A model generated the notes under the pieces. That model saw only the letters and a program-made list of their open reading frames with translations. It was not told the origin of the DNA and did no database searches. Position numbers and translations under genes: made by a program. DNA of 64,000 bases from an uncultured Flavobacteriaceae bacterium. Its GTDB lineage: Bacteria > Bacteroidota > Bacteroidia > Flavobacteriales > Flavobacteriaceae. Position 1 is the stretch's first letter. Each line of letters opens with the position of its first letter. The DNA lies in contig CALLVX010000142.1 of assembly GCA_938010765.1 (NCBI GenBank), forward strand, positions 1 through 64,000. Reading direction: 5' to 3'. Of the stretch, positions 35,984-53,678 are shown in pieces.

Positions 35984-36124
35984 TCATTCACCAAAAAATA
36001 CGTACAGAATGCAACATATTATATAAAATATGCCTAATAAAAAGAAAATAGCTGCACTGTCCATCGAACTTTGCTTTTTCTTGGGCGTGCTATAGTGCTC
36101 GTTACTTTTATCCTTATCTAACAT
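35984..36124 (-). CDS. P1: small single-pass membrane peptide, array unit 1
   Basis: A 46-residue peptide, MLDKDKSNEHYSTPKKKQ then SSMDSAAIFFLLGIFYIICC and a YVFFGE end. Residues 1-23 are polar and 24-44 form one membrane helix with a Cys-Cys pair. Seven loci in this window encode the same peptide with mostly third-position base differences, which argues for real coding. It is divergent from the degraded receptor of unit 1, with a 465-bp interval between them. ATAAG precedes the ATG as a weak ribosome site. Function unknown. Confidence 0.75.
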   Translation of the reverse strand: MLDKDKSNEHYSTPKKKQSSMDSAAIFFLLGIFYIICCILYVFFGE

Positions 36125-36589
36125 CTTATAAAAATTAAATTTTAAGACCCCTATTTATACTATTCCCGTTAGCCCATGAATTATTAGTTCATGGGCCAAT
36201 TGCTAAAAGGAAACAACGGGACATGCTTAAATTTTCCTGTTTCCTCGAGGGTCACGTATCTTTGTTTTCCTATGAAAAGGAATTCGTAGATTGCATTAAA
36301 CCCTGATCAACTGTTCTCAAAATTACTATTAACCAAATTGATTATTCAATTTACAGGGGGCTCAAAAGGTATGCATCGGATTTTTTTTGAAGACCAGATT
36401 TTCCTTACATAAAAAGAGCCCATATTTGAAATAAAAAGGCTTGGAAAGCAATTGTTATAAGGGAATTCGGGAAAATAAGTTATATGTTCTTTTTTCAGAT
36501 TTAAGCACAGATGCATACCAAAAGAATACCCTAAAGTGCCAAAGTGAAGATTCCATTACCCACACTTAAACTAAGAGTTGATTAAAAAA
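36125..36589. promoter_or_regulatory. Unit 1 divergent control interval
   Basis: The interval separates peptide P1 and the unit 1 receptor remnant. It holds an inverted pair GGTATGCA (36368-36375) and TGCATACC (36512-36519), 144 bp apart start to start. A T-run followed by GAAGACC comes after the first site and CAAAAGAAT after the second. A conserved block GGCCAATTGCTAAAAGGAAA lies nearer the peptide side. The same architecture recurs in units 2, 3, 4, 8 and 9. No gene is seen inside. Confidence 0.6.
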
Positions 36590-37864
36590 ATGATGCAAGG
36601 TGATGACGGCAATTCGATATTTTTAAGTGCGGGTGCTACCCACGCATTGTGACCACAATTTATAAGTCTACTTTCTTTCATTAACTCATTTTCTGATTTT
36701 GACCAAGCCCTAATTCTTTGCCAAATGTCGAAATCGATAGTCTGAATAATATCGCCGATCCGTTTTTTCCAGACGATGGAAACTTCAGAACAGCCCATTA
36801 TCAAAACCTTTTTAAGAATTCAGTAGCCAATAAACACACTAATGGAATTATGCGGGCTAGCTTTAATTTGGGACAATATTATAATATTAAAAGTAAACAG
36901 CTCGACAGCGCAGTGTACTATTATGATAGAAATATCCTCTTGATTGAGAAACTCGGAATTTCAAAATGGAAGAATATTATCTCAATCATATGGCCAAAAG
37001 GCCATTTATCTCGCCACTTCCTATCCCTTGAATCTTTCGAAAAAACCTACAAACTATCCTTAGGAGGTGAAGACGCCTATGAAATAATACGCCAAAGATT
37101 AACCTTGCGGAGCTCAACAGGGTATTGCAGAACTACAACAAGGCGATTGATATGGCTTCTGAAATGCTGAAGGATTCTTCCGGTTTGGATGAAACTGCAA
37201 AAGCAATACTAAATGGCGTCATAGGCGCCAGTCCTGTACAAAACAAAAAACCGGCACAGATACTAACGTTTTTTGAAATCTCAGATTCGATTTGTCAAAA
37301 TAATAATTTGGATGATTACATTATAATTGATGCAAGGGCTTGGAGGGCAAATGACCATCTGGGTTTGGAAAATCTAAAAAAGACCAATGAAAAGACAATA
37401 CTTGAAGCGCAGATAAAACTTCGGGAAGATGAACTGAGCACCACCATGGTTCATTTTACCAAAAACACAAAAACCATAAAAAAGACCATAAAGAATCTGA
37501 ATACCAGCCTGGCAAAAAAAGGCTATGGGGCATTGGAAAAGGTGAAAGATTCGTTAAAGGACTATCAAAAATCTTCTTTGACCGTGTCTCCTTGCTGACC
37601 GATCGTGTCGAGTCACAATACCCGGGAATAGCTATACAACTAAGGGCGCTTTACCCCAATTTCTTCCCTAATGATATAAAGCATTGTCTTATAATCAAAC
37701 CTGGACTGAGCCTAAAAGAAACCACACAACTGTTCAACATTACCATTGTGGCGGTAAAATCGGTCAAGGGCCGTATGCACAAAAAGGTCGGGTTGGATCC
37801 AGAACTTTCTTTGAAGCAACATTGCAAAATCGGCCTAGAAAAGGAAGGGCTACGTTTAGTTTAA
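36590..37864 (+). pseudogene. Unit 1 TPR-LuxR receptor, degraded
   Basis: Pieces of the receptor are recognisable in order but in different frames: signal-peptide region with a TGA (about 36653), TPR part from 36718 (NVEIDSLNNIADPFFPDDG), a frameshift near 37100, TPR part from 37125 (YNKAIDMASEMLKDSSGLDE), then a deletion. The deletion removes the rest of the TPR region and the membrane helix, joining directly to KKTNEKTILEAQIKLREDEL. A frameshift near 37590 follows, then the HTH (LSLKETTQLFNITIVAVKS). The usual ATG further upstream is also altered. It cannot make a normal receptor. Confidence 0.92.
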
Positions 37865-37994
37865 TTCCCTATAGAACGGCGACAGCGTTACGAGCGTATC
37901 AAAATGCCCGCGCACCTGATTATTCTAAAAAATAGCTAGATCTTTAAAAGCCGCTAAATCTCAGCTACCTATTCCTAGGTTCCGGCCCGGTGGA

Positions 37995-38132
37995 CTAGCC
38001 AAAGAATACGTACATTATACAACACACTATGTATAGTATTCCCAATAGAAAGAAAATGGCGGCACTATCGGCCGGATTTTGGTATTTCTTGGCCTGCCCA
38101 TAGTTTTCGTTGCTTTGATTTTTATCTAACAT
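37995..38132 (-). CDS. P2: small single-pass membrane peptide, array unit 2
   Basis: A 45-residue peptide with N-terminal MLDKNQSNENYGQAKKYQ, then NPADSAAIFFLLGILYIVCC and a YVFFG C-terminus. It converges with the unit 1 receptor remnant and diverges from the unit 2 receptor at 38587, 454 bp away. It has the same length and start context (TAAG then ATG) as its paralogues. The polar half is rich in Asn, Gln and Lys, and the helix would carry the Cys pair. It is too short for most gene finders. Confidence 0.8.
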   Translation of the reverse strand: MLDKNQSNENYGQAKKYQNPADSAAIFFLLGILYIVCCIMYVFFG

Positions 38133-38586
38133 CTTATAAAAATTAAATTTTTAGTGATTCTATTACCATTGGTCTACGCAATTAGAATTCGTTGGCCAAT
38201 TATTATAAGGAAACGAATAGGGCATAAATAAATCCTCCGCGTTTTCCTTAAAGTTCCCAATCTTATTTTCAGTTGTTATTAGAAGAACCGACCTACAAGA
38301 CCGAACCCTACCCTAACTAACTCTTTTCAAAATTACGGTTCATTATATAGAGTTCTTAATTTTTCAGGGGTTCAAAAGGTATGCAACTTATTTTTTTTTG
38401 AAGACCAGATTCGTCTTACATAAAAAGGACCTATATTTGAAGTGAAAAGACTTGGAAAGCAATTGTTATAAGGGAATTCGGAAAAGTAAGCCAAATTCTC
38501 CACTTTCAGATTTAAGCACGTATGCATACCAAAAGAATACCTAAAAGTGCTAAAGTGAAGACTTCATTATTCACACTCAAACCAAT
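38133..38586. promoter_or_regulatory. Unit 2 divergent control interval
   Basis: Inverted sites GGTATGCA (38378-38385) and TGCATACC (38523-38530) lie 145 bp apart. A TATATTTG box (about 38432) that fits the -7 consensus sits between them, and the second site is 57 bp from the receptor ATG. The block CCAATTATTATAAGGAAACG near 38200 is shared with the other intervals. I see no gene inside. Confidence 0.6.
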
Positions 38587-40377
38587 ATGTTGATTAAAAA
38601 AATGCAAAAAGACGATGTCGAAAATTCGATAGTTTTAAGGGCGTATGAAACCCGTACGTTCCGCTTACAGCTTACATATCTACTCTCATTTATTAGTGCA
38701 TTTTCTGTTTTTGGCCAAGTCTCGAATACTCTTTCAAATGCAGAAATCGACAGTCTAATACTTCTAAGTGACCCGGTTTTCCCAGAGAATAGGCATTTTG
38801 GAGTAGCATACTATCAAAACCTTCTTAAGAACTCCGTAGCAAATAAACACACTAGCGGAATTATAAATTCCTACTTCAGTTTAGGGGAATATTATCATTT
38901 TACCGACAAACAGATAGACAGCTCTGTGTATTACTTTGACCAAACAATTCTCTTGATCGAGAAGACGGGCATTTACAAGCGAATTTTAGCTGCGGCATAT
39001 AATCAAAAATGCGGTAGCCTCGCAGATTCAGGCATGAAGTACCTTGCTCTTGAATCTTTGCAAAAAGCTTATGAAATAGACTTGCAACAAGATAATAAAG
39101 ATGGAATGATCATTCGGCAGCTCAACCTTGCAGAGTTGAATAGGGATTTGCAGAATAACGAAAGGGCTATTGAGATTGCTACAAAAGTACTCAAGGATTC
39201 TACTTTGGAGAACTATAGAAAAGGTACACTAAATGCTATAATCGGTTCTTCCTTGATACAACTAAAAAAACCAAAAGAAGGGCTTTTATTTCTAGAAATT
39301 GCCGATTCGATTTACCAAAAAAATCGTTGGGAAGATATTGAAATAATTAATGTGCGTACTTATGTTGCCCAAGCTTACCTGGATCTCGGAGATTTGAAAA
39401 AATCTATTCAATTATGCGAAAGTATACGTGCTGAGTTTCCAGATTCCATGAAAAGTATGAACGTAACGAACTTGGTGTTGGGTAAAGCTTTACTGCAAAG
39501 TGGTCGGGCAAGACGTGCAATACAAGTATTGGAAAAGGCACTCATAGTTAACAGAAACGAAGAGAAAAAGATACCTATTTTGGAAACACTGGGCTTTGCC
39601 TATCTCTCTCAAAACAACGTTGAAAAGTCCGAACCGCTATTTACCGAGGCGACCGTACTTAGGGACAGCATACAGGATTCAAGGGCAAAACGATTTTCTA
39701 GCTACTCCTCCATTTCCTATAATTTGCTGGAAACGCAGTATAAAAATGACAACTTGGTACATAAAAATGAAACACTCGAGGCTAAGGCAGTCGAAAGGGA
39801 ATACTTGCTCAGTGTTTTAGTGTTGTCCATTACGGTCATGTTACTGTCGATCCTCGGGTATATCCTTTGGAAAAAATACCATACCGGAAAAAATACCATT
39901 ATAAGTTTAAAGGCCAATGAAAAAGCGATACTTGAAGCGCAGATAAAACTTCGGGAAGATGAGTTGAGCGCTACCATGGTTCATTTCTCCAAAAACATGA
40001 AAACCATAGAAAATATCTTAAAGGACATGGATGCCAGCTTGGCAAAAAAAGATTTCGGCGCTTTGGAAATGATCAAGAAAGAATTACATGATTATCAAAA
40101 ATCCTCTTCGGCGATTTCTTTATTGACCGATCGGATCGAGTCGCAATACCCGGGAATATCTATGCAACTCCGGACGCTTTATCCCAATTTCTCCCCTAAT
40201 GATATAAAGCATTGTCTTATGATCAAACTTGGTCTGAGCTTAAAAGAAACCGCGCAGCTGTTCAACATTACCATTGCAGCGGTAAAATCGGCCAGGGGCC
40301 GTATGCGTAAAAAGATGGGGTTGGATCCGGACATTTCTTTGAAGCAACATTTAAGTAACATTGCAAAATCGGCCTAG
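38587..40377 (+). CDS. Unit 2 receptor: exported TPR sensor, membrane helix, LuxR-type HTH
   Basis: The 596-residue product has an N-terminal export signal ending near FSVFGQVSN and a variable TPR-like sensor to about residue 400. One membrane helix follows at about 405-427 (YLLSVLVLSITVMLLSILGY), then a coiled coil (about 437-500, EKAILEAQIKLREDELSATM). The C-terminal HTH at about 549-575 reads LSLKETAQLFNITIAAVKSA. The topology puts the sensor outside and the DNA-binding part inside: a membrane-tethered one-component regulator of a type common in Bacteroidetes. Ligand unknown. It pairs with peptide P2. Confidence 0.88.
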   Translation: MLIKKMQKDDVENSIVLRAYETRTFRLQLTYLLSFISAFSVFGQVSNTLSNAEIDSLILLSDPVFPENRHFGVAYYQNLLKNSVANKHTSGIINSYFSLGEYYHFTDKQIDSSVYYFDQTILLIEKTGIYKRILAAAYNQKCGSLADSGMKYLALESLQKAYEIDLQQDNKDGMIIRQLNLAELNRDLQNNERAIEIATKVLKDSTLENYRKGTLNAIIGSSLIQLKKPKEGLLFLEIADSIYQKNRWEDIEIINVRTYVAQAYLDLGDLKKSIQLCESIRAEFPDSMKSMNVTNLVLGKALLQSGRARRAIQVLEKALIVNRNEEKKIPILETLGFAYLSQNNVEKSEPLFTEATVLRDSIQDSRAKRFSSYSSISYNLLETQYKNDNLVHKNETLEAKAVEREYLLSVLVLSITVMLLSILGYILWKKYHTGKNTIISLKANEKAILEAQIKLREDELSATMVHFSKNMKTIENILKDMDASLAKKDFGALEMIKKELHDYQKSSSAISLLTDRIESQYPGISMQLRTLYPNFSPNDIKHCLMIKLGLSLKETAQLFNITIAAVKSARGRMRKKMGLDPDISLKQHLSNIAKSA

Positions 40378-40423
40378 AAAATACATGAGTACCTATGACC
40401 GAACCCTAGAGGAGATCCGTGTT

Positions 40424-40561: not shown

Positions 40562-41030
40562 CTTATGAAAATTAAATTTTTAGTAATTCTATTACCCTTG
40601 GTCTACGCAATTACAATTCGTTGGCCAATTATTATAAGGAAATGAATAGGGCATAAATAAATCCTCTATGTTTTCCTTAAAGTTCCCAATCATTATTTTC
40701 AGTTGTATAGGAGAACCGAAACACAGACCGAATCTTACCCTAACAAACTCTTTTCGAAATTACGGTTCATTATATAGAATTCTTAATTCTTAGGGGACTC
40801 AAAAGGTATGCAGATAATTATTTTTTGAAGACCGGATTCACCCTAAGCAAAAAGGAAGTATCTTTAAATAAAAAAGACTTGGAAAGCAAGTTCTATAGGG
40901 CAGTTCGCAAAAATAAGCTAAATACCATGCTCTTAGCTTTAAACCGATATGCATACCAAAAGAACTCCTTAAAGTGCTGATGTGAAGACTTCACTACCCA
41001 TACTTAAATTAATAGTTCATTTGTAAAGCA
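40562..41030. promoter_or_regulatory. Unit 3 divergent control interval
   Basis: Inverted sites GGTATGCA (40805-40812) and TGCATACC (40950-40957) are 145 bp apart, the second 74 bp before the receptor ATG. A T-run with GAAGACC follows the first site. The peptide-proximal conserved block CCAATTATTATAAGGAAATG is present. No gene seen. Confidence 0.6.
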
Positions 41031-42839
41031 ATGTTAAAAGGCAGCGGTTTTTCAATATTTTTAAGTGCAGATACAACCCGGGTATTGTGCACCTGGCTAA
41101 TTTGTATACTTTCTTTTATTAACTCATTTTCAATTTTAGGCCAATCTCCTAGGATTATGGAGAATGCCGTTATAGATAGTTTAAATATCGCAATAACCCC
41201 TTTTAATCCCGACAACGAACACTTGGGGGTGACCAACTATCAAAACCTTCTTAAAAATTCAGAGGCGAATAAGCATACAAAGGGAATTATAGATTCCTAT
41301 TACAATTTGGGCCATTATTACTTTTATAATGACCGACAGGTCGACAGCATGCTATATTTCTATGATCAAGCCATAATCTTAATCGAGCGGACAGGTGTCG
41401 AAAAATTAAAATTACCCGAAATTTATACTTTCAAGGCAACCAACCTTATGTCATCGAGCATGGAATTCTTGTCCCTTGAATCTTTTGAAAAAGCCTATGA
41501 GCTATCCTTAGAGGGTGGAAATTCCTACGATATTTTACGTGCTCAGGTGAACCTTTCAGGCCTTAATTTGAAATTAAAGAATTACGAAAAGGCGATTAAG
41601 ATAACTTCGGAATTACTCGAAAACCCAGCTGTTTTAGCCGATAACTTGGCTGGTGCAATTAATAAAAACTACAATGTAATTGATTATGTAACGGCCACAC
41701 TATATGATATATTGGGTGCTAGCCTTGTAGAAACTAATAAGCTCGAAGAAGGGCTTGCTTTATTAAAAATTTCAGATTCGATTTCACGTAAAAACCAATG
41801 GGATCAACAAACAGCTGAAACACAGACATGGATAGCAAGGACCTATTTGGATTTGGGGGATTTAAAAAAAGCTATTCTTCTATGTGAAAGCATAAATACA
41901 GAGTTTGCCGATTTCCCAGGCAAAACAAAGCTAACGAATTTGATACTTGGAAGGGCGCTAGTACAAGATGGCCAGATACCAAAGGGGGTTCGGATGCTAG
42001 AAGAAGGGCTCGAATTAAATGGAACCAAGGAGGAAATGATAGCTATTTTGGAAACTTTAGGCTTTGCCTATCTCTCCCAAAACAACGTTCAACAATCCGA
42101 ACCCCTATTTTCCAAAGCGATTGAGTTACGGGACAGTATGCAGGACTCAAGGGCAAAACGATTTTCGCGCTACTCCTCCATTTCCTATAATTTATTGGAA
42201 ACGCAGTTTAAAAATGACAACCTCGCACATAAAAATGAGGTTTTGGAGGTCAAGGCCATTGAAAGGGAGTACCTTCTGGGTGTTTTGGTATTGTCCATTA
42301 CCGTAATACTGCTATCGATCCTCGGGTATGTTCTTTGGAAAAAATACCATACCGGAAAGAAGACCATTCAAAGTTTAAAGGCAAATGAAAAAGCAATTCT
42401 TGAAGCGCAGATAAAACTTCGGGAAGATGAGCTGAGCGCTACCATGGTTCATTTTACCAAAAACATGAAAACTATTAAAACGATCGTAAAGGATCTGGAT
42501 AGCAGCTTGGCAAAAAAAGACTACGGTGCATTACAAATGGTAAAAAACTCCTTACAGGAATATCAAAAATCTTCTTCGACCGCCTCCTTGTTGACCGATC
42601 GGATCGAGTCGCAATACCCGGGAATATCTATGCAACTTCGTGAGCTATATCCCAATTTCTCCCCAAATGATATTAAGCATTGTCTTATGATCAAACTTGG
42701 GCTGAGCTTAAAGGAAACTGCCCAACTATTCAATATTACCATCGCGGCCGTAAAATCGGCCAGGGGCCGAATGAAAAAAAAGATGGGGCTTGACCAGGAT
42801 GTTTCCTTGAAGCAACATTTGAGTTTCATTGCAAAATAG
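41031..42839 (+). CDS. Unit 3 receptor: exported TPR sensor, membrane helix, LuxR-type HTH
   Basis: The 602-residue product has the array architecture: export signal ending at FSILGQSPR, TPR-like sensor, membrane helix at about 414-436 (YLLGVLVLSITVILLSILGY), coiled coil, and HTH at about 557-583. The sensor has a short insertion near residue 205 (LAGAINKNYNVIDYV) shared only with the unit 4 receptor. The following block (SISRKNQWDQQTAETQTWIA) is almost identical in unit 4, so these two exchanged or inherited that segment recently. It is probably expressed from the interval shared with P3. Confidence 0.88.
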   Translation: MLKGSGFSIFLSADTTRVLCTWLICILSFINSFSILGQSPRIMENAVIDSLNIAITPFNPDNEHLGVTNYQNLLKNSEANKHTKGIIDSYYNLGHYYFYNDRQVDSMLYFYDQAIILIERTGVEKLKLPEIYTFKATNLMSSSMEFLSLESFEKAYELSLEGGNSYDILRAQVNLSGLNLKLKNYEKAIKITSELLENPAVLADNLAGAINKNYNVIDYVTATLYDILGASLVETNKLEEGLALLKISDSISRKNQWDQQTAETQTWIARTYLDLGDLKKAILLCESINTEFADFPGKTKLTNLILGRALVQDGQIPKGVRMLEEGLELNGTKEEMIAILETLGFAYLSQNNVQQSEPLFSKAIELRDSMQDSRAKRFSRYSSISYNLLETQFKNDNLAHKNEVLEVKAIEREYLLGVLVLSITVILLSILGYVLWKKYHTGKKTIQSLKANEKAILEAQIKLREDELSATMVHFTKNMKTIKTIVKDLDSSLAKKDYGALQMVKNSLQEYQKSSSTASLLTDRIESQYPGISMQLRELYPNFSPNDIKHCLMIKLGLSLKETAQLFNITIAAVKSARGRMKKKMGLDQDVSLKQHLSFIAK

Positions 42840-42980: not shown

Positions 42981-43118
42981 CTAGCCAAAAAACACGTACA
43001 CAATACAGCACACTACATATAGTATGCCCAATAAAAAGAAAATGGCAGCACTGTCGGCCGAGCTTTGATATTTATTAGCCCGCCCATAGTTTTTGTTGCT
43101 TTGATCTTTATCTAACAT
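42981..43118 (-). CDS. P4: small single-pass membrane peptide, array unit 4
   Basis: A 45-residue peptide, MLDKDQSNKNYGRANKYQ then SSADSAAIFFLLGILYVVCC and a YVFFG end. The frame continues upstream to 43196, but the paralogues all start at the MLDKD codon, so I use 43118. It is divergent from the unit 4 receptor at 43599 (480 bp between) and convergent with the unit 3 receptor. Confidence 0.8.
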   Translation of the reverse strand: MLDKDQSNKNYGRANKYQSSADSAAIFFLLGILYVVCCIVYVFFG

Positions 43119-43598
43119 CCTGTAAAAAATTAAACTTATATTAATCATTGTCGATTCTACTTCCATTGGCCTGCGCAGTTTCAATTCGTTGGCCAATTGT
43201 TATAAGGAAATGAATAGGACATAAATAAATCTCCCCGTTTTCCTTAAAGTTCTCAATCTTTATTTTCAGTGGTTATAGGAGAGCCGATCTACAGATCTAA
43301 GCTTACCCTACCATACTCTTTACAAAATTACGGTTCATTGAACAGAATATTCAACTTACGAGGAGTTCAAAAGGTATGCAGGTAATTTTTATTTTGAAGA
43401 CCTGTTCGGCCATGTAAAAAAGAAGCTATACCTAAGCAAAAGAACCCAAAAACCATTCGCAGCAGGGTTTCCGGTCAAAGTACCGGAAGGGTCAAATTTA
43501 AGCCTAAAGGGCCTATGCATACTAAAAGCATCCCCGAAATTGACAAGATCAAAGCCTCATTGCATTAACTTAGCGTTGATCGTTAATCCAAAAAATCA
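43119..43598. promoter_or_regulatory. Unit 4 divergent control interval
   Basis: Inverted sites GGTATGCA (43373-43380) and TGCATACT (43516-43523, last base changed) are 143 bp apart, the second 75 bp before the receptor ATG. The peptide-proximal block CCAATTGTTATAAGGAAATG is conserved. No gene seen. Confidence 0.6.
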
Positions 43599-45416
43599 AT
43601 GCTAAAAAAATTCATTAATTCAATATTTCCGATTGCAGGGGTAACTAGCACGCTTTGTTTTCAATCGGCTTGTCTACTTTCTTTTATTAGCTCATTTTCA
43701 ATTTTCGGTCAAGCCCCGAATACCTTGTCGAATACTCAAATCGATAGTTTGAACAGTTTATCCAAACCTTTTTATGTTAAAAACGACAAGTTGGATATGG
43801 CTCACTACAAGAATCTTCTAAACCAGTCTATAGCAAATAACCATACAAAAGGAATTATTGATTCTTACTATAATTTAGGCAATTATTACTATTACAACGA
43901 TAAGCAGTTAGACAGCATGCTTTACTTCTTTGACCAAACGATCATCTTAATCGAGAAGACTGATATCGAAAAAAAATTATTGCCAGATATTTACAGGTAC
44001 AAAGGCGCTTACCTTGCAGTGAATGGCATGGAATTCTTATCACTTGAATATTTAGAGAAAGCCTATGAAGTATCGTTAGAGCATGGTGATACAGAGGCAA
44101 TTTTGGCGGCCAAAATTAACCTTGCAGGGCTTAACTTGAAATTAAAGAATTATGAAAAGGCGATTAGTTTAGCCTCAGAGCTACTCGAAAATCCTGCTAC
44201 CTTAAATTATAAATTAGGGAATAGCTTAAAAGATAAGGGATACAATCTAGTTGATTATACTAATGTTACACTAAATGATATCTTGGGCGCTAGCCTTGTA
44301 GAAACTAATAAGCTCAAAGAAGGGCTTGCCCTTCTAAAAATTTCCGATTCGATTTCACGGAAAAACCAATGGGATCAACAAACAGCTGAAACACAGACAT
44401 GGATAGCACGGACCTATTTGGATTTGGGAGATATAAAAAAGGCTATTCTTCTATGTGAAAGCATAAATACAGAGTTTGCCGATTTCCCAGGCAATACAAA
44501 ACTAACGAATTTGATACTTGGAAAGGCGCTAATGCAAGATGGCCAGATATTAAAAGCGATCGGGGCTCTGGAAGAAGGCCTTACCTTAGAGGGCACCAAG
44601 GAGGAACAAATAACTATTTTGGAAACACTTGGCTTTGCATATTTATCCCAAAAAAACCTCGAGAAGTCCAAGCCGCAGTTTATTAAGGCAATTGATATAA
44701 GGGATAGTATACAGCATTCAAGGGCAAAAAGTTTTTCTCGCTACTCCTCCATTTCCTATAATTTATTGGAAACACAGTATAAAAACGATAACCTCGCACA
44801 TAAAAATGAAGTTTTGGAGGCCAAAGCCATTGAGAGGGAGTACCTTCTGGGTGTTTTGGTGTTGTCTATTTCCGTAATATTACTATCGATCCTCGGATAT
44901 GTTCTTTTGAAAAAGTACTATATAGGAAAAAGGACCATTAAGAGCCTAAAAGCAAATGAAAAGGCAATTCTAGAAGCGCAGATAAAACTTCGGGAAGATG
45001 AATTGAGTGCCACCATGGTTCATTTCACCAAAAACATGAAAACTATTAAAACGATCGTAAAGGACTTGGATGCGAGCCTAGTAAAAAAAGACTACGGCGC
45101 CTTAGAAGTGGTAAAAAACTCCCTACAGGAATATCAAAAATCTTCTTCGACCGCCTCCTTGCTGACCGATCGGATCGAGTCGCAATACCCGGGAATATCT
45201 ATGCAACTTCGCGAGCTATATCCCAATTTCTCTCCCAATGATATTAAGCATTGTCTTATGATCAAACTTGGGCTGAGTTTAAAGGAAACCGCACAACTGT
45301 TCAATATTACGATCGCGGCCGTAAAATCGGCCAGAGGTCGTATGCGCAAAAAAATGGGTGTGGACAAGGAGGTTTCGCTAAAAAAGCACTTGAGTTTGGT
45401 TGCCAAATCGGCCTAG
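43599..45416 (+). CDS. Unit 4 receptor: exported TPR sensor, membrane helix, LuxR-type HTH
   Basis: The 605-residue product has an export signal ending at FSIFGQAPN, a TPR-like sensor, a membrane helix at about 414-436 (VLVLSISVILLSILGYVLLK), a coiled coil, and the HTH at about 559-585. It shares with unit 3 the sensor insertion and a nearly identical block around residues 235-300, but differs in the first 200 residues. The C-terminal 180 residues are almost the same as in all other units. The last residues (DKEVSLKKHLSLVAKSA) differ slightly from the others. Confidence 0.88.
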   Translation: MLKKFINSIFPIAGVTSTLCFQSACLLSFISSFSIFGQAPNTLSNTQIDSLNSLSKPFYVKNDKLDMAHYKNLLNQSIANNHTKGIIDSYYNLGNYYYYNDKQLDSMLYFFDQTIILIEKTDIEKKLLPDIYRYKGAYLAVNGMEFLSLEYLEKAYEVSLEHGDTEAILAAKINLAGLNLKLKNYEKAISLASELLENPATLNYKLGNSLKDKGYNLVDYTNVTLNDILGASLVETNKLKEGLALLKISDSISRKNQWDQQTAETQTWIARTYLDLGDIKKAILLCESINTEFADFPGNTKLTNLILGKALMQDGQILKAIGALEEGLTLEGTKEEQITILETLGFAYLSQKNLEKSKPQFIKAIDIRDSIQHSRAKSFSRYSSISYNLLETQYKNDNLAHKNEVLEAKAIEREYLLGVLVLSISVILLSILGYVLLKKYYIGKRTIKSLKANEKAILEAQIKLREDELSATMVHFTKNMKTIKTIVKDLDASLVKKDYGALEVVKNSLQEYQKSSSTASLLTDRIESQYPGISMQLRELYPNFSPNDIKHCLMIKLGLSLKETAQLFNITIAAVKSARGRMRKKMGVDKEVSLKKHLSLVAKSA

Positions 45417-45845
45417 TTAAGAGTAAATGAACAGTGTATTGTTCAGGCTTTAAAAGGTTCTTCTCAATGTGTTGAAAAACGCTGTCTTTAAGTAATCACA
45501 TCGCTAAAATTACAGTGAACATATAGAGTCAAAAAACAACACCTCGAATTTACATTTATAGCAGCGCAATTCTAAAAGTAAAACGCATGTAAAATCCTCA
45601 CAAAAACCCGTTGGGGTAAATTATTTGGTGGCGACTCGAATGCATACCAAAAGCATCCCTGAAATTTACCTGTAAAGGGTTTCATTATTCTATCTTTATA
45701 ACGGTGAATTACCTCAGAGTAAGCCCACGAGGTATCAAAAGAAAATTCAACATTGATTTCGATACAAAAATCAGAGCAACTTGTCTTACGCCAGTCAGGT
45801 TTAAACCTCGATTATCGAGTCGATAAACAATAAATCTTCAAATAG
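45417..45845. promoter_or_regulatory. Unit 5 upstream region, divergent from the other intervals
   Basis: This 429-bp region has no peptide ORF and no left GGTATGCA site. A single TGCATACC remains at 45641-45648, followed by the usual CAAAAGCATCCC-like context. A dispersed repeat (45708-45832) separates the site from the receptor ATG, so the site-to-ATG distance is 197 bp instead of about 75. Unit 5 therefore probably has different control. Confidence 0.55.
45708..45832. repeat. Dispersed repeat, copy B (CCTCG...CGAGG element)
   Basis: It contains ATTACCTCAGAGTAAGCCCA, CGAGGTATCAAAAGAAAATT, CAACATTGATTTCGATAC and ATTATCGAGTCGATAA, matching copy A at 27500-27625 block by block. The added length between the unit 5 TGCATACC site and the receptor ATG (about 122 bp relative to units 3, 4 and 8) equals the size of the repeat, suggesting insertion here. 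Confidence 0.65.
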
Positions 45846-47627
45846 ATGCTAAAAAGAGATATTTCCAAAGCACGTTCAAATGCGAACACCTCTGGTGCAA
45901 TTTGTTTTCAACTTCTTTTTCTTTATTCACTCTTCACTTCATTCTTGGTTTTTGGTCAAAGCCGGGCGAAAATGACCAATGATCAGATCGATAGTTTAAT
46001 CATAGCGGAGAAGCCAACCTATCAAAACAATAAAGCCTACGGTTTGGAAAATTATAAAATTATTTTGAACAATGCCATCTCCAATGGGTATACCAAGGGA
46101 ACCGTCTATTCTTATTTTCACTTAGCAGGTTATTACCAAAAAAATGATTTCCAACTTGACAGTGCATTGTATTATTACGATCAAGCAATCCTGTTAATCA
46201 ATAAGACCGGTATTGCAAAAAAAAATATTTTAACGGGTTCACATTCCAATAAGGGCATTTTACTTGCCGAATCTGGCATGGATTTCCTTTCCCTAGCATC
46301 TTTTGAAAAAGCCTACAAAGCGGCATTGGAAGAAGGGGACTACTATAATATTTTACTTGTCAAGACCAACCTTGCCGAGCTCAATAGGGTTTTACAGAAC
46401 AACGAAAAGGCAATTGGTATGGCCAACGAACTGCTCAGCGATCCCGAAACCGAGAAAGATGAATTGGGAAAAGCGATATTGAACGGTATCATTGGTGCCA
46501 GTCTAGTTCAGTCGCAAAAACCCAAACAAGGTCTCTCGTTTCTCAAAATTTCGGATTCTATTGAGCGTAATGCAGGTGTAAGTACGAATGTCCGAATTGA
46601 TACCCATACTTGGATAGCACAAGCTTATCTAGATATGGAAAATCTGGACAGCGCCATTAGCACATGCGAAAATATACTTGCCGAATTTCCCGATTATCAG
46701 GGCAAGGTAAAGCAGACCTATCTAATCTTCGGTAAGGCCTTGTTGAAAAAAGGACAAACGGCCCTGGGGATACAAACCCTGGAAAAGGCACTCAAAAAGA
46801 CGGGCTCCAAGAAAAACCACATTGCCATATTGGAAACCTTGGCCAATTCATACCTCTCACAGAACGAACTTCGAAAATCACAGCCCCTCTTCACCAAGGC
46901 GACCAAATTACGAGACAGTATTCAAACCTCCCGGGCTAAACAGTTTTCCAAATACTCTTCCATCTCCTACAATTTATTGGAAACACAGTTTAAAAATGAC
47001 AACCTCGCACATAAAAATGAGGTTTTGGAGGCCAAGGCCATTAAAAGGGAGTACCTGTTGGGTGTTTTGATATTGTCCATTACAGTAATACTACTATCCA
47101 TCCTTGGGTATGTTCTTTGGAAAAAATATTATCTAGGAAAAAAGACCATTCAAAGTTTAAAGGCAAATGAAAAGGCGATACTGGAAGCGCAGATAAAACT
47201 TCGGGAAGATGAACTGAGTGCGACCATGGTTCATTTTAGCAAAAACATGAAAACTATTAAAACGATTGTAAAAGATCTGGATGCCAGCTTGGCAAAAAAA
47301 GACTATGGTGCTTTACAAATAGTAAAAAACTCCCTACAGGAATATCAAAAATCTTCTTCGACCGCCTCTTTGCTGACCGATCGGATCGAGTCGCAGTACC
47401 CGGGAATATCTATGCAACTTCGCGAGCTATATCCCAATTTCTCCCCCAATGATATTAAGCATTGTCTTATGATCAAACTTGGGCTGAGCTTAAAGGAAAC
47501 TGCCCAATTGTTCAATATTACCATCGCGGCCGTAAAATCGGCCAGGGGAAGGATGCGAAAAAAGATGGACTTGGATCCCGACATTTCCTTGAAGCAACAT
47601 TTGAGCTTCATTGCAAAATCGGCCTAG
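45846..47627 (+). CDS. Unit 5 receptor: exported TPR sensor, membrane helix, LuxR-type HTH
   Basis: The 593-residue product has an export signal ending at FLVFGQSRA, a TPR-like sensor, a membrane helix at about 402-424 (YLLGVLILSITVILLSILGY), a coiled coil, and the HTH at about 547-573. The sensor block THTWIAQAYLDMENLDSA with AEFPDYQG is nearly identical to unit 8, while the first 180 residues differ. It is the only intact receptor without a divergent peptide gene; a dispersed repeat lies in its 5' region. Confidence 0.88.
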   Translation: MLKRDISKARSNANTSGAICFQLLFLYSLFTSFLVFGQSRAKMTNDQIDSLIIAEKPTYQNNKAYGLENYKIILNNAISNGYTKGTVYSYFHLAGYYQKNDFQLDSALYYYDQAILLINKTGIAKKNILTGSHSNKGILLAESGMDFLSLASFEKAYKAALEEGDYYNILLVKTNLAELNRVLQNNEKAIGMANELLSDPETEKDELGKAILNGIIGASLVQSQKPKQGLSFLKISDSIERNAGVSTNVRIDTHTWIAQAYLDMENLDSAISTCENILAEFPDYQGKVKQTYLIFGKALLKKGQTALGIQTLEKALKKTGSKKNHIAILETLANSYLSQNELRKSQPLFTKATKLRDSIQTSRAKQFSKYSSISYNLLETQFKNDNLAHKNEVLEAKAIKREYLLGVLILSITVILLSILGYVLWKKYYLGKKTIQSLKANEKAILEAQIKLREDELSATMVHFSKNMKTIKTIVKDLDASLAKKDYGALQIVKNSLQEYQKSSSTASLLTDRIESQYPGISMQLRELYPNFSPNDIKHCLMIKLGLSLKETAQLFNITIAAVKSARGRMRKKMDLDPDISLKQHLSFIAKSA

Positions 47628-47672
47628 AAAAGATATTACCAATAATGATCGGGTCTGCTCAATAGTACTATT

Positions 47673-47810
47673 TCAACACAAAAAAACATATCCAGTTCAG
47701 CATACTGCATATAGTATTCCCAGTAAAAAGAAAGTTGCTGCGTTGTCGGCCCGATTTTGATATCTCCAGGTCAGCCCATAGTTTTCGTTGCTTTGATCTT
47801 TATCTTACAT
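47673..47810 (-). pseudogene. P6: broken copy of the array membrane peptide
   Basis: The locus has exactly the paralogue length (138 bp) and keeps DKDQSNENYG and FFLLGILYAVC, but codon 2 is TAA (47805-47807, TTA in the others) and a TGA replaces a helix codon further on. The Cys pair is lost with it. It belongs to unit 6, whose receptor is also broken. Confidence 0.88.
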
Positions 47811-48057
47811 CCTGTGAAAATTAAATTTTTAAAAATCTGTACTGATTCTACTTCCTTTGGCCTACCCAGTTACAATTCGTTGGCCAATTGTTATAAGGAA
47901 ACGAACAGGGCTTAAATAAATTCCTCGGGGCTTCCTTAAAGTTTCCAATCTTTATTTTAAGTTACTATAGGAGAACTAATCTACAGGTCGAACTTTACCC
48001 TAGTAAACTCTTTTCAAAATTACCGCTTGCAAAATAGAATTTTAAACTTCCATAAAA
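47811..48057. other. Unit 6 truncated control interval
   Basis: The peptide-proximal half of the conserved interval is present (for example CCAATTGTTATAAGGAAACG), but sequence breaks off near 48055 and joins directly to codons from the middle of the receptor's first TPR segment. Both GGTATGCA-type sites and the receptor start are gone. No gene seen. Confidence 0.6.
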
Positions 48058-49528
48058 CTTGATAGTGCAATGTACTTCTATGATCAAACCATTCTCTTGG
48101 CGGAAAAGAGTGGTAAAGAAAAAAATATATTGGGCATGGTACATGGCAACAAAGCCATTATTCTCTCGGAATCTGGCATGGACTTCCTGTCGCTTTCATC
48201 ATTCGAAAAAGCATATGAAGCATTCTTAGCAGTTGAAAATAAAAGTAACATTGCACTTTGCGGACTTAACCTTGCCGAGCTTAACAAGGAATTAAAGAAT
48301 TATGATGAGGCAATTAATTTGGCTATGGAAATACTCAAAGATACAGTCACTTTGGCTGATGAAACTGGAAAAGCTAACGCAAACAGTATAATAGGAGCTA
48401 GCCTCATAAAAGCCGGAAATCCCGAAAAATCACTCCCATTCCTTGAAATTGCAGACTCGCTTGGTAGAAGTAAAAATACGGAAGATCATGTGACGATCAA
48501 TGAGCGGACATGGATGGCACATGCCTATCTGGATCTTGGAAATCCTAAAAGAGCCATTCGAATCGGTGAAAATATAAAAAAGGAGTTTCCCAATTTCCAG
48601 GGCAGTGTAATGTTAGTAGACCTGATTCTTGGAAAGGCACTATTGCAGGAAGGACAAATAAAAAGAGCGATACGGGTATTGGAAGGGGGCCTCGCACGGA
48701 CGGGAACCAAGGATGACCAAATAGCTATTATAGAAACCTTGGGACATACCCATCTGTCCCAGAACATGGCTCAAAAGTCCTAATCGCTTTTCAACGAGGC
48801 GATTAGACTAAGGGACAGTATACAGGATTCAAGGGCAAAACGATTTTCGCGCTACTCCTCCATTTCTTATAATTTATTGGAGACACAGTATAAAAATGAC
48901 AATCTGGCTTATACAAATGAAACGCTCGAGGCGAAGGCCGCCGAAAGGGAATACCTTCTGGGGGTTTTGGTTTTGTCTATTACGGCCATATTATTGTCGA
49001 TCCTTGGATATATCCTTTGGAAAAAATACCATACCGGAAAAAAGACCATTATAAGTTTAAGGACAAATGAAAAAGCAATTCTTGAAGCGCAGATAAAACT
49101 TCGGGAAGATGAACTCAGCGCCACTATGGTACATTTTACCAAAAATATGAAAACTATAAAAACTATTTCAAAGGACCTGGATACCAGCTTGGCAAAAAAA
49201 GATTACGCCGCATTGGAAATGATAAAAAAAGCGCTACAAGACTACCAAAAGTCTTCTTCGACCACCTTCTTTGTTGACCGACCGTATCGAGTCTCAATAC
49301 CCCGGAATATCAATGCAGCTTCGGGAGGCATACCCAAATTTTTCCCAAAATGATATTAAGCATTGCCTTATGATCAAACTTGGGTTGAGTTTAAAGGAAA
49401 CCGCTCAACTTTTCAATATTACCATAGCGGCCGTAAAATCGGCTAGGGGCCGAACGCGAAAAAAGATGGGGTTGGGTCCGGATGTTTCTTTGAAGCAACA
49501 TCTGAGTTTCATTGCTAATTCTGCCTAG
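48058..49528 (+). pseudogene. Unit 6 TPR-LuxR receptor, degraded
   Basis: The frame starts without signal peptide at LDSAMYFYDQTILLAEKSGK because a deletion removed the promoter and about the first 100 codons. A TAA at 48781 follows NMAQKS. The reading resumes as SLFNEAIRLRDSIQDSRAKR through the membrane helix and coiled coil, then a frameshift near 49265 (after KSSSTT) puts the HTH (LTDRIESQYPGIS and onward) in another frame. At least three lesions, so no functional receptor is expected. Confidence 0.92.
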
Positions 49529-49776
49529 AAAAGGCCAATTTCGCAACGAAACAACTACTACGCCTTCTTTCAAGTGTCGCACCTGTATCAAAGTGCAGTT
49601 GTAGTACTTTATTATTTTAAGAAACGGCCCAAACTTTCAATACCAACTTATTTGCTAAATTATAACGGGCCATGCGGAAAGATAATCGAGTTAGCGAGGG
49701 TAATAAAGCCATTTCTTTTACCTTAAATCTCATCCTATTTTCTTCTGTTCGTTGTTCAATTGTCATTTTTAAAGAA

Positions 49777-49914
49777 TTAATCAAAGAACACATATACAAT
49801 ACAGTATACTACATATAGTATCCATAATAAAAAGAAAACATACGTATAGTCAGCCGACCTTTGATATTTCTTTGTCTGTCTATAGTTTTCGTTGCTCCGA
49901 TCTTTATCTAACAT
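49777..49914 (-). CDS. P7: divergent orphan copy of the array membrane peptide
   Basis: A 45-residue peptide, MLDKDRSNENYRQTKKYQ then RSADYTYVFFLLWILYVV, with one Cys replaced by Tyr and a final YVFFD. It is the most divergent intact copy and has no receptor of its own: the next features upstream on its strand are another peptide gene (P8) and then a receptor. The frame extends to 50022, but I use the paralogue start at 49914. Confidence 0.65.
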   Translation of the reverse strand: MLDKDRSNENYRQTKKYQRSADYTYVFFLLWILYVVYCIVYVFFD

Positions 49915-50108
49915 CCTATGAAAATTACGTTTTAAAAAAACCTGTTGATACTGCTTCAATTGGCCAATAGTCAAAATAAATATTGAATACGAAGGTTTTG
50001 CTGTTCTCCCCAACTGGCACATGCGCCATGGCAGTCATTGTGGGTAATCCTTAAGAATAGTGGCACTAATTCAATAGTTGGCTATAAACTAATTTACACG
50101 AACCCCGC

Positions 50109-50246
50109 CTACCCAAAAAACACATACACAATACAGCATACTACATATAGTATGCCCAATAAAAAGAAAATTGCCGCACTGTCGGCGGAGCTTTGATATT
50201 TCTCGGCCTGCCCATAATTTTCGTCACTTTGATCTTTATCTAACAT
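50109..50246 (-). CDS. P8: small single-pass membrane peptide, array unit 8
   Basis: A 45-residue peptide, MLDKDQSDENYGQAEKYQ then SSADSAAIFFLLGILYVVCC and a YVFFG end. It is divergent from the unit 8 receptor at 50726 (479 bp between). P7 lies 194 bp downstream on the same strand, so the two could be co-transcribed. Confidence 0.8.
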   Translation of the reverse strand: MLDKDQSDENYGQAEKYQSSADSAAIFFLLGILYVVCCIVYVFFG

Positions 50247-50725
50247 CCTATGAAAATTTAATTTTTAAAAATCTGTACTGATTCTACTTACTTTAGCCTA
50301 CCCAGTTATAATTCGTTGGCCAATTGTTATAAGGAAACGAATAGGGCTTAAACGCATCTGCCATATATTCCTTAAAGTTCCTAATCTTTAGTATCGATTG
50401 CTATAGAAGAGCCGATCTATAGATCGAACCTTATCCTAACAAACCTTTTTCAAATTTACGGCTCGCTAAATAGAATTATCAACTTTCGAGGTGCTCAAAA
50501 GGTATGCAGCCAATTTTTTTTTTGAAGACCTATTAGGTCATTTCAAAAAAGAAACGGTTTTTAAGGAAATAGGATCTTAATCCAATTATATCGGGGGTTT
50601 CGGCAGAAAAAAAGGAAGGTAAAAATTAAGATTTAGACACATATGCATACTAAAAGCATCCCTAAAAATGATTTAATCAAGGCTTCATTTCCTTAACTTA
50701 GCATTGATAGTTAATCTTAAAATCA
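50247..50725. promoter_or_regulatory. Unit 8 divergent control interval
   Basis: Inverted sites GGTATGCA (50501-50508) and TGCATACT (50644-50651) are 143 bp apart, the second 74 bp before the receptor ATG. A long T-run followed by GAAGACC comes after the first site. The peptide-proximal block CCAATTGTTATAAGGAAACG is present. No gene seen. Confidence 0.6.
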
Positions 50726-52504
50726 ATGCTAAAAAAATACTTTTATCCAATATTTTCAAGCATGAAAGCAACTAACACAATTTGCTTTCAACTTGTATCT
50801 CTGCTATCACTTACTAGTTCATTTTTAGTTTTGGGACAAAGCCCCACCATGACTAATGATCAGATCGATAGTTTAATCAGAGTTACCAACCCATCCTACA
50901 ATAATGACAATTCATATACTGCGGAGCATTATAAAAATATCCTGAATAATTCTATTGCAAACGATTATACCAAAGGAATCATAAATTCTTACTTTTGTTT
51001 GGGCCGCTATTACCATTTTAAAAATATACAGGTCGATAGCGCTTTGTATTTTTATGACCGAACGACCCTTTTTATAGAAAAAAATGGCGCAAAAGAAAAA
51101 GAAGTATTAGCAATAGCCCATGGGCATAAGGCCATTCTACTTTCTGAGTCAGGAATGGCATTTCTTTCCCTAGCATCTTTTGAAAAAGCGTATAAAACCT
51201 TTTTGGAGATTGGGAATAAAGCTCATATCGCCACTGCCATATTAAACCTTGCCGAGCTTAATCGTGTCTTAGGTAATAATAAAACGGCAATTAGCCTCGC
51301 TACCGAGATGCTAGAAGACACTTCCGATTTGGATGAATATGACAAATCTATACTAAATGGTATTATCGGCACCAGTTTAATACAAGACAAAAAACCGGAA
51401 CAGGCACTTACCTTTCTTAAAATTTCCGACTCTATTTATCAGGAACACAATTTAAAATATGAATCGCTGTTCATTGAAACCCATACTTGGATAGCACAAG
51501 CTTATCTGGATATGGAAAATCTGGACAGTGCCATTCACACATGCGAAAATATGCTTGCCGAATTTCCCGATTATCAGGGTAATTTAAAGTTGGTCCATCT
51601 AATCCTCGGCAAGGCCCTGTTTAAAAACGGGCAAACAGCCCTGGCGATACAAACTTTGGAAAAGGCGCTCAAATCAAAGGGAACCCAAAAGGATCAAATA
51701 GCCATTTTAGAAACCCTGGCCAATTCATATCTATCCAGGAAGAGCATTCAAAAGGCCCAACCCTTGCTTTCAGAGTCGATAAGATTACGTGATAGCATTC
51801 AGGATGCCAGAGCGAAACACTTCTCTCGCTACTCTTCCATTTCCTATAATTTATTGGAAACACAATTTAAAAATGATAACCTCGCACATAAAAATGAGGT
51901 TTTGGAGGCCAAGGCCATTGAAAGGGAGTACCTGTTGGGTGTTTTGATATTGTCCATTACGGTAATACTACTATCGATCCTTGGGTATGTTCTTTGGAAA
52001 AAATACCATACCGGAAAGAAAACCATTCAAAGTTTAAAGGCAAATGAAAAGGCGATACTAGAAGCGCAGATAAAACTTAGGGAAGATGAACTGAGTGCCA
52101 CCATGGTTCATTTTACCAAAAACATGAAAACTATTAAAACGATCGTAAAGGATTTGGATAGCAGCTTGGCAAAAAAAGACTACGGTGCATTGCAAATGGT
52201 AAAAACTTCCCTTCAGGAATATCAAAAATCTTCTTCGACCGCCTCTTTGCTGACCGATCGGATCGAGTCGCAGTATCCGGGAATATCTATGCAACTTCGC
52301 GAGCTATATCCCAATTTCTCCCCCAATGATATTAAGCATTCTCTTATGATCAAACTTGGGCTTAGCTTAAAGGAAACCGCCCAACTGTTCAACATTACCA
52401 TCGCTGCCGTAAAATCGGCCAGGGGCAGGATGCGAAAAAAGATGGATCTGGATCCCGACATTTCCTTAAAGCAACATTTGAGCTTCATTGCAAAATCGGC
52501 CTAA
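50726..52504 (+). CDS. Unit 8 receptor: exported TPR sensor, membrane helix, LuxR-type HTH
   Basis: The 592-residue product has an export signal ending at FLVLGQSPT, a TPR-like sensor, a membrane helix at about 401-423, a coiled coil, and the HTH at about 545-571. It shares a sensor block with unit 5 (about residues 255-310). In the output domain it has NDIKHSLMIKLG where all the others have Cys instead of that Ser. Its 3' third is nearly identical in DNA to the unit 9 remnant, so the two are recent relatives. Confidence 0.88.
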   Translation: MLKKYFYPIFSSMKATNTICFQLVSLLSLTSSFLVLGQSPTMTNDQIDSLIRVTNPSYNNDNSYTAEHYKNILNNSIANDYTKGIINSYFCLGRYYHFKNIQVDSALYFYDRTTLFIEKNGAKEKEVLAIAHGHKAILLSESGMAFLSLASFEKAYKTFLEIGNKAHIATAILNLAELNRVLGNNKTAISLATEMLEDTSDLDEYDKSILNGIIGTSLIQDKKPEQALTFLKISDSIYQEHNLKYESLFIETHTWIAQAYLDMENLDSAIHTCENMLAEFPDYQGNLKLVHLILGKALFKNGQTALAIQTLEKALKSKGTQKDQIAILETLANSYLSRKSIQKAQPLLSESIRLRDSIQDARAKHFSRYSSISYNLLETQFKNDNLAHKNEVLEAKAIEREYLLGVLILSITVILLSILGYVLWKKYHTGKKTIQSLKANEKAILEAQIKLREDELSATMVHFTKNMKTIKTIVKDLDSSLAKKDYGALQMVKTSLQEYQKSSSTASLLTDRIESQYPGISMQLRELYPNFSPNDIKHSLMIKLGLSLKETAQLFNITIAAVKSARGRMRKKMDLDPDISLKQHLSFIAKSA

Positions 52505-52534
52505 AAAAGATCCGGTCTACTCAATAGTACTATT

Positions 52535-52672
52535 TTAACCAAAAAATACGTACACAATACAACATACTACATATAATATGCCCAATAAAAAGAAAATTGC
52601 CGCGCTGTCGGCGGAGCTTTGATATTTCTCGGTCTGCCCATAATTTTCGTTACTTTGATCTTTATCTAACAT
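52535..52672 (-). CDS. P9: small single-pass membrane peptide, array unit 9
   Basis: A 45-residue peptide, MLDKDQSNENYGQTEKYQ then SSADSAAIFFLLGILYVVCC and a YVFFG end; it differs from P8 at two positions only. It converges with the unit 8 receptor (30 bp between stops) and is divergent from the truncated unit 9 receptor. Confidence 0.8.
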   Translation of the reverse strand: MLDKDQSNENYGQTEKYQSSADSAAIFFLLGILYVVCCIVYVFFG

Positions 52673-53204
52673 CCTATGAAAATTTAATTTTTAAAAATCT
52701 GTACTGATTCTACTTCCTTTGGCCTACCCAGTTACAATTCGTTGGCCAATTGTTATAAAGAAACGAATAGGGCCTAAATACAGCTCCCATATTTTCCTTA
52801 AAGTTCCTAATCCTTAGTATCGATTGCTATAGAAGAACCGATCCATAAATTGAACCTTACCCTATAACCTCTTTTCAAATTTACGGTTCGTAAAATAGAA
52901 TTCTTAACTTCTAGGGGGCTCAAAAGGTATGCAGCCAATTTTTTTTTTGAAGACCTATTAGGTCATTTCAAAAAAGAAACTATTTTTAAGGAAAGTGCGT
53001 ATAAAGCCAATGAAATAAGGGTTTTTAATGAAAAAAAAGAGTGTTCTATTTATGAAAAGGGCACATATGCATACTAAAAGAATCCCTAAAAATGATACAA
53101 TAAAGACTTCATTTATTTAACTTAGCATTGATAGTTAATCCTAAAATCAATACCGAAAAAATATTTGTATCCATTATTTTTCAAGTCTGAAAGCTGCTAG
53201 TGGG
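52673..53204. promoter_or_regulatory. Unit 9 divergent control interval
   Basis: Inverted sites GGTATGCA (52926-52933) and TGCATACT (53068-53075) are 142 bp apart. The position matching the normal receptor ATG (53150) reads ATA here, so the interval ends with a lost start codon and about 50 bp of former coding sequence. No intact gene inside. Confidence 0.6.
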
Positions 53205-53678
53205 ATGTCTTTTCAACTGGCATACCTCATTTCTTTTTTTAATGCATTTTCAATTTTTGGCCAAACCCAAGCCACCATGGTTCATTTTACCAAAAACATG
53301 AAAACTATTAAAACGATCGTAAAGGATCTGGATAGCAGCTTGGCAAAAAAAGACTACGGTGCATTGCAAATGGTAAAAACTTCCCTTCAGGAATATCAAA
53401 AATCTTCTTCGACCGCCTCTTTGCTGACCGACCGGATCGAGTCGCAGTACCCGGGAATATCTATGCAACTTCGCGAGCTATATCCCAATTTCTCCCCCAA
53501 TGATATTAAGCATTGTCTTATGATCAAACTTGGGCTGAGCTTAAAGGAAACCGCCCAACTGATCAACATTACCACTGCGGCCGTAAAATCGGCCAGGGGC
53601 AGGATGCGAAAAAAGATGGACTTGGATCCCGACATTTCCTTGAAGCAACATTTGAGTTTCATTGCAAAATCGACCTAG
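53205..53678 (+). pseudogene. Unit 9 receptor: sensor and membrane helix deleted, HTH intact
   Basis: The 157-codon frame joins the end of a signal peptide (LISFFNAFSIFGQTQ) directly to the coiled coil and HTH (ATMVHFTKNMKTIKT and onward). A deletion of about 1.2 kb has removed the TPR sensor and the membrane helix, and the original start codon is mutated. Translation from 53205 would export a DNA-binding domain. Translation from the internal ATG at 53277 would give a cytoplasmic HTH protein of about 133 residues that could compete at the array operators. I list it as a pseudogene but that product is possible. Confidence 0.75.

Follow-up and report, generated by a model that had tools for sequence, protein, structure and literature searches.

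A tandem array of membrane-peptide and TPR-TM-HTH receptor genes in a Flavobacteriaceae genome, with diverged sensors, a homogenised output and a shared putative operator

What might a bacterium do with a run of neighbouring units in which a very small membrane peptide and a membrane-spanning regulator are encoded divergently? Such an array occupies positions 35984-53678 of a stretch of 64,000 nucleotides (nt) (contig CALLVX010000142.1 of assembly GCA_938010765.1; the whole stretch is called the window) from an uncultured Flavobacteriaceae bacterium, whose genome is referred to here as G000. Our answer, a tentative one, is that the locus forms a closed, autoregulated membrane signalling array in which the peptides feed back on the receptors. 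The comparisons made include 149 genomes of relatives, 10 genomes of the genus and a wider family sample of 397 genomes, drawn evenly. G004, uncultured Flavobacteriaceae isolate 2-697, belongs to another species of the same genus and is not among the matches in the family sample.

A preliminary description of this DNA, made from its letters, had proposed an 18-kb repeat of a peptide gene on the minus strand, a control interval and, on the plus strand, a gene for a receptor with tetratricopeptide repeats (TPR), a membrane helix and a helix-turn-helix (HTH) domain. This is what is found: the repeats of the tandem array (about 18 kb) stay in register across eight copies, with eight peptide loci, all on the minus strand (seven open, one broken), and eight receptor loci, all on the plus strand (five intact, of 592-605 amino acids with TPR repeats, and three damaged). 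The regular unit that it drew stands for the four fully intact pairs, in which the peptide ATG and the receptor start are separated by 454, 469, 480 and 479 nt, but not throughout, since receptor 5 (45846-47627) has no upstream peptide and the peptide at 49777-49914 has no receptor of its own. The genes are as follows.

35984-36124, minus strand: membrane peptide 1, 46 amino acids, open
36590-37864 (start approximate), plus strand: receptor 1, pseudogene with many stops and frame changes
37995-38132, minus strand: membrane peptide 2, open
38587-40377, plus strand: receptor 2, intact, 596 amino acids
40424-40561, minus strand: membrane peptide 3, open
41031-42839, plus strand: receptor 3, intact, 602 amino acids
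42981-43118, minus strand: membrane peptide 4, open
43599-45416, plus strand: receptor 4, intact, 605 amino acids, modelled
45846-47627, plus strand: receptor 5, intact, 593 amino acids, no peptide
47682-47810, minus strand: membrane peptide 6, broken (no ATG, one TGA and one TAA)
48040-49528, plus strand: receptor 6, damaged (stops; N-terminus, that is the 5' end, and the stretch with both operators lost)
49777-49914, minus strand: variant peptide (FLLW..YVVYC), without its own receptor; peptide 7 lies upstream of it, on this strand too
50109-50246, minus strand: membrane peptide 7, open
50726-52504, plus strand: receptor 7, intact, 592 amino acids
52535-52672, minus strand: membrane peptide 8, open
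53205-53678, plus strand: receptor 8 remnant, 157 amino acids (an internal deletion removes the TPR and the membrane helix)

The receptors combine variable sensors with a nearly uniform output. Amino-acid identity in this array is 51% over the sensor and 90% over residues 371-605, and the same holds in the G004 array; between the two arrays the values are 47% and 71% (receptor sets A2 and A4, which exclude receptors 1, 6 and 8). Synonymous divergence (dS) over residues 371-605 is 0.20-1.27 in 38 of the 39 within-array pair-bins and 2.57 in the other. Between arrays it is 1.29-2.77 or saturated in the five of 15 receptor pairs for which it was computed. Sensor dS within arrays is below 1 in five of 39 pair-bins (0.53-0.99), which involve receptors 3/4, 5/7, 2/4 and g1/g4; in the other 34 it exceeds 1 or is saturated. 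Mere constraint would not confine low dS to pairs within an array, and the membrane-HTH module therefore appears to be homogenised, by gene conversion or by partial crossing-over that recurs. The process would be local to an array, because a further receptor of the same genome, on contig C84, is not homogenised with it (dS 1.62-2.56 against receptor 4 over residues 371-605). In the C-terminal tree the five array receptors form a clade (99/98); the N-terminal tree is poorly supported, and a single clade for the five array sensors is not rejected (approximately unbiased test, p-AU 0.381). The proposal that sensors diversify while a common output is kept is thus upheld within each array.

Intact receptors comprise, in order, an N-terminal hydrophobic helix, a TPR solenoid, one membrane helix, a coil and the HTH. 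An AlphaFold2 model of receptor 4 (11 sequences; predicted local distance difference test, pLDDT, 79; predicted template modelling score, pTM, 0.56) places helical repeats at residues 45-350 behind an N-terminal helix, then a long helix (354-495), in which the hydrophobic segment falls, and lastly a helical domain at 519-603, with pLDDT 51-67 across most of 441-530. With the membrane helix assigned by reading and from the model, the receptors fit the TPR-TM-HTH class (TPR, one transmembrane (TM) helix, C-terminal HTH), which is a known architecture in Bacteroidetes. The label "LuxR-type" is loose: on the C-terminal piece both GerE (E 0.081, 13.0 bits; Pfam cut-off 23.5) and Sigma70_r4_2 (E 4.5e-4, 20.2 bits; cut-off 25.7) stay under their cut-offs, and a PDB sequence search with this piece gave nothing under E 0.04. 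In a Foldseek comparison with the PDB, generic TPR proteins rank first and the peptide receptors Rap and NprR are among the 50 best; no ligand is identified thereby. Residues 203-589 weakly match NF053779, the BT3442 family (E 2.3e-9, 36.5 bits, against a cut-off of 940), and we know of no peptide or operator array in that family. Its namesake BT_3442, a TPR protein according to PMC2954219, is encoded in a cluster that also has a MACPF gene. In the receptor 8 remnant (53205-53678) an open frame fuses the N-terminal hydrophobic helix directly to the coil and HTH; the 157-residue product could be a constitutive or dominant-negative form.

Is the peptide a gene at all? Typically it has 45 residues and a single hydrophobic membrane helix, the seven open peptides giving the consensus MLDKDQSNENYGQAKKYQSSADSAAIFFLLGILYVVCCIVYVFFG. 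Minimum changes at codon positions 1, 2 and 3 number 48, 29 and 75 over 11 open copies from two species (chi-square p 2.6e-5, indicative only as the sequences are related). The ratio of nonsynonymous to synonymous divergence (dN/dS; Nei-Gojobori method, NG86) is 0.03-0.34 in the 39 of 55 pairs where it is computable, dS being saturated in the other 16. Because third-position changes dominate and dN/dS is low, the peptide is, on this coding signature, a real gene under purifying selection. It is present in two of the 149 relatives, G000 and G004, so that the check run on relatives extends the conservation of the peptide beyond this array. Among the 397 family genomes a convincing peptide occurs in G000 alone; six weak matches from other genera in five of these genomes (E 0.002-0.008, fragments, some with stops) were dismissed as noise. 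Three peptides searched against Pfam and NCBIfam gave no match above noise, one Sec20 match having E 0.24; PHROGs and PADLOC were not searched.

Conservation is uneven along the peptide. Among the six typical peptides of the array the C-terminal half, which is the hydrophobic helix, is 90% alike and the N-terminal half 74%; N-terminal halves in G004 are just 35% alike. (Peptide sets A1 and A3 leave out the broken peptide 6 and the C84 peptide, and A1 the G004 peptides as well.) Peptides 1 and 8 remain open beside the ruined receptor 1 and the deleted receptor 8, and peptide distances do not covary with those of the divergent sensors (Mantel r 0.17, p 0.60; 7 pairs, hence low power). As the peptides are much alike, stay open beside dead receptors and lack such covariation in this weak test, the self-recognition suggested in the preliminary description finds no support in G000; with their dissimilar N-terminal halves, the peptides of G004 may have some specificity.

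A second subtype, FLLW..YVVYC, is seen at 49777-49914 and, in G004, at 12782-12916 of locus L023, with a core common to both species; in each, another peptide precedes it by about 200 nt in the same orientation. The shared core and position suggest that this subtype probably predates the split of the two species, and the variant may be co-transcribed with the upstream peptide. A terminator scan also picked out a palindrome, GGCATAC..GTATGC, within the membrane-helix codons of two peptides (43007-43028 and 50135-50156).

Peptides and receptors share more than a position. Across the aligned intervals of nine units (sets A5 and A6, which exclude units 5, 6 and C84) a 14-nt box, TCAAAAGGTATGCA, is invariant, while the intervals of the two species are otherwise diverged (mean column identity 63%). 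Exact copies number six in G000 and three in G004, all inside the arrays, and zero in the other eight genomes of the genus. A 19-nt putative operator, TGCATACYWWWWGMNNNCC, read outward, is common to the peptide and receptor sides; it has 14 exact matches in G000 (13 in the array), five in G004 (all in the array) and one in the other eight genomes. In the window its copies are these.

36357-36375, minus strand: operator, peptide side, unit 1 (-7 element TAATTTTG 50 nt on)
36512-36530, plus strand: operator, receptor side, unit 1
38367-38385, minus strand: operator, peptide side, unit 2
38523-38541, plus strand: operator, receptor side, unit 2
40794-40812, minus strand: operator, peptide side, unit 3
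40950-40968, plus strand: operator, receptor side, unit 3
43362-43380, minus strand: operator, peptide side, unit 4
43516-43534, plus strand: operator, receptor side, unit 4
45641-45659, plus strand: operator, receptor side, unit 5 (no peptide-side operator)
50490-50508, minus strand: operator, peptide side, unit 7
50644-50662, plus strand: operator, receptor side, unit 7
52915-52933, minus strand: operator, peptide side, unit 8
53068-53086, plus strand: operator, receptor side, unit 8

On the peptide side the distance from the operator start to TAnnTT(T/C)G is exactly 50 nt in all nine units (TAnnTTTG in eight), and TTG (three units) or TTA (six) lies 24 nt before it in all nine. On the receptor side TAnnTT(T/A)(A/G) is found at 50 nt in six of ten units and at 48 nt in one, and is degenerate in units 1-3; receptor 5, which is peptide-less, retains just the receptor-side operator. 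TAnnTTTG is described as the Bacteroidetes -7 element, running from T at -12 to G at -5 in Flavobacterium johnsoniae; the -33 element of that species reportedly stands out far less (PMC6847099). With this assignment the operator would therefore lie at about -62 to -44.

The combination of operator and -7 element appears private to the arrays. With up to one mismatch allowed, the four genomes searched contain it 15 times (10 in this array and five in that of G004); at two mismatches there are zero further sites and at three there are seven, against 11 for a backward control. The single elements were also counted outside the arrays. With one mismatch, the 14-nt box gives 13 sites in G000 and G004 against two for the backward control, a slight excess, and 22 for both in the other eight genomes. 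For the 19-nt operator, with no more than one mismatch, the counts are 15 against 10 in G000 and G004 and 39 against 38 in the remaining eight. Of 14 outside sites (the 13 one-mismatch sites of the box and the exact one of the operator) none has a -7 element at 50 nt, and 13 fall in frames of 90 or more codons without a stop. A wider regulon is therefore unlikely. The sole exact operator match outside the array in G000 (contig C2, 7142-7160) sits in a long open frame, and 50 nt from it there is no -7 element.

Other uses of the interval were considered. An invertible promoter was rejected: although GGTATGCA and TGCATACC are inverted relative to each other, all nine units align in one orientation over the intervening stretch. 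The peptide leader is 201-257 nt long; an example at 38133-38335 (minus strand) has about 200 nt from promoter to ATG, a conserved GCC(A/G)ATT block and a possible hairpin. An RNA element was not retained: Rfam gave no match in the array, RNAalifold was weak on both strands, and the covariation of the leader hairpin is borderline (14 to 47 of 500 shuffles match the observed value, and a slide by +1 does nearly as well).

How might the parts work together? The TPR domain, presumably periplasmic, would sense a protein or peptide state. The activated receptor would bind the shared operator through its nearly identical HTH and so switch on both the peptides, from a near-consensus promoter, and the receptors, from a weak one. 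The peptides would in turn act, most likely in trans and through the membrane, on the conserved membrane-juxtamembrane part common to all receptors and so modulate them by feedback, as MgrB does PhoQ; many diverged sensors would feed a single output, like an OR gate. Since the operator-promoter combination is found nowhere else in G000, the peptides would be the main product of the circuit. Feedback is ranked first for the following reasons. What is conserved in both partners is a membrane part: in the peptide, the half that is a hydrophobic helix, and in the receptor, the half with the membrane helix. The peptides, moreover, do not track the sensors in G000 and are the sole non-receptor product under the operator. 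A fuller version, in which gene conversion keeps the membrane-HTH module and the private operator common to all copies of an array, the periplasmic sensors are free to diversify and the peptides either act in trans on all receptors or are themselves an effector, is more doubtful.

Several points weigh against a closed circuit with peptide feedback. Within species, peptide distances do not covary with those of the receptor membrane region (Mantel r 0.52, p 0.91, 7 pairs), so there is no sequence sign of the proposed peptide-receptor contact. Binding of the operator by the array HTH is suggested by their co-occurrence in two genomes, and boxes of related units are not independent observations. 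The receptor-side -7 element is off consensus (TAnnTTTA or TAACTTAG) and has no upstream TTG. Targets with another site or spacing would escape the pattern search, and the C84 receptor persists without an intact peptide beside it, as does the peptide-less receptor 5.

The same data can be read in other ways. The peptide could be a membrane-active effector or toxin, similar to type I toxins or holins, and be induced when the TPR domain senses an envelope or competitor signal; the receptors would then be its control. A small single-helix hydrophobic peptide in many copies, with a leader of such length and no operator-promoter targets beyond the array, is what this would lead one to expect, but the peptide matches no Pfam or NCBIfam family above noise and the array no Rfam family, hairpin support is borderline and no antitoxin gene was noticed; we regard this as rather unlikely. 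Alternatively, the exported peptide, whole or processed, could be the ligand of the periplasmic TPR domain, with positive feedback as in Rgg/SHP and RRNPP systems and receptors that diversify in specificity. The divergent peptide-regulator pair, the TPR sensor and the feedback layout fit such a pheromone, as do Rap and NprR among the 50 best Foldseek matches, albeit behind generic TPR proteins, and the greater variability of the peptide N-terminal half, strong in G004. It is nevertheless unlikely: the typical peptides of G000 are alike while its sensors are 51% identical, the weak covariation test gave no link to the sensors, the conserved C-terminal half is a hydrophobic helix, and no exporter or protease gene was seen among the open reading frames (ORFs) of at least 100 amino acids in the array. 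Moreover, five receptor relatives outside the arrays (one on contig C138, the others in G080, G244, G044 and G262, of other genera) lack such a peptide; in about 1.3-1.6 kb upstream, ATG-started ORFs of 25-130 amino acids were found, several of them hydrophobic, none peptide-like by eye.

It is also conceivable, if improbable, that the locus is a decaying duplicate, grown by unequal crossing-over and now losing copies, its boxes and peptides being leftovers of descent. In its favour, three receptor loci and one peptide locus, out of eight of each kind, are broken, and a remnant of another array seems to lie on C84. Set against this are the purifying selection on the peptide, the five intact receptors with their conserved output, and a 14-nt invariant box and exact spacing kept between species despite the diverged intervals. 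The idea of an expanding locus is half borne out: with eight receptor loci the array outnumbers that of G004, which has three, yet three loci are broken here and none there.

Known systems provide partial parallels. RRNPP receptors are cytoplasmic, with an N-terminal HTH and a C-terminal TPR domain, an order that is reversed in the array receptors; RRNPP peptides are exported, matured and taken up again by the cell. In the Rgg/SHP and RRNPP systems of Firmicutes a small peptide gene is likewise divergent from that of a TPR-bearing HTH regulator, as described in PMC13361665. The array differs in its membrane-spanning receptors, with a hydrophobic helix between the TPR and the C-terminal HTH, in its longer peptide with a membrane helix, whose sequence does not follow that of the sensor in G000, in its tandem arrangement and shared operator, and in the phylum concerned. 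MgrB is reported to be a 47-residue inner-membrane peptide that is regulated by PhoP and represses the system (PMC2789325). The array peptide is of similar size and, given the shared operator geometry, its genes may be controlled by the regulator on which it would act; unlike MgrB-PhoQ/PhoP, however, the array has one-component TPR-HTH receptors in many copies and no kinase, and the three peptides searched did not match the MgrB family through Pfam or NCBIfam, no direct comparison with MgrB having been made. The type I toxins Ldr and Ibs are small single-helix proteins in multiple copies. They resemble the array peptides in size, hydrophobicity, copy number and long leader, but no antisense RNA or Rfam match was found in the array, which has its own operator. 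The array may work like a divergent peptide-regulator pair or like MgrB feedback; membership in either group is not borne out. The shared operator is a new finding of this analysis, and the amplified, operator-sharing pairing of receptor and peptide is undescribed in those titles and abstract openings that searches of openly licensed literature brought up. If true, a closed circuit would represent, for Bacteroidetes, a novel type of peptide-regulator system, and if the peptides act on the receptors it would resemble Rgg/SHP or MgrB-PhoQ in logic, with unrelated parts. As a natural example the array is compact: its sequence displays diversifying sensors, a homogenised output and a private class of promoter.

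Arrays are found in two of the 10 genomes of the genus. That of G004, with three intact receptors and four open peptides, is orthologous and has the same flanking genes, which we take to be a 23S rRNA methyltransferase-like and an esterase-like gene (gene names, including the LysE-like and transposase-like ones below, were read off translations and not from a family search). A two-pattern scan of wider genome contigs found one locus, on the contig of G004, and says little about absence; plasmids gave just two weak partial receptor matches. The C84 locus of G000 (L022, 10827-13730) consists of a lone intact receptor and a decayed peptide, tail to tail, with a transposase-like gene beyond, and is probably what is left of a second array. 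In G008 the two flanking genes enclose other genes and no array: where it would sit (L067, contig C93, 2102-3410) there are a gene for 207 amino acids and a second gene, presumably LysE-like.

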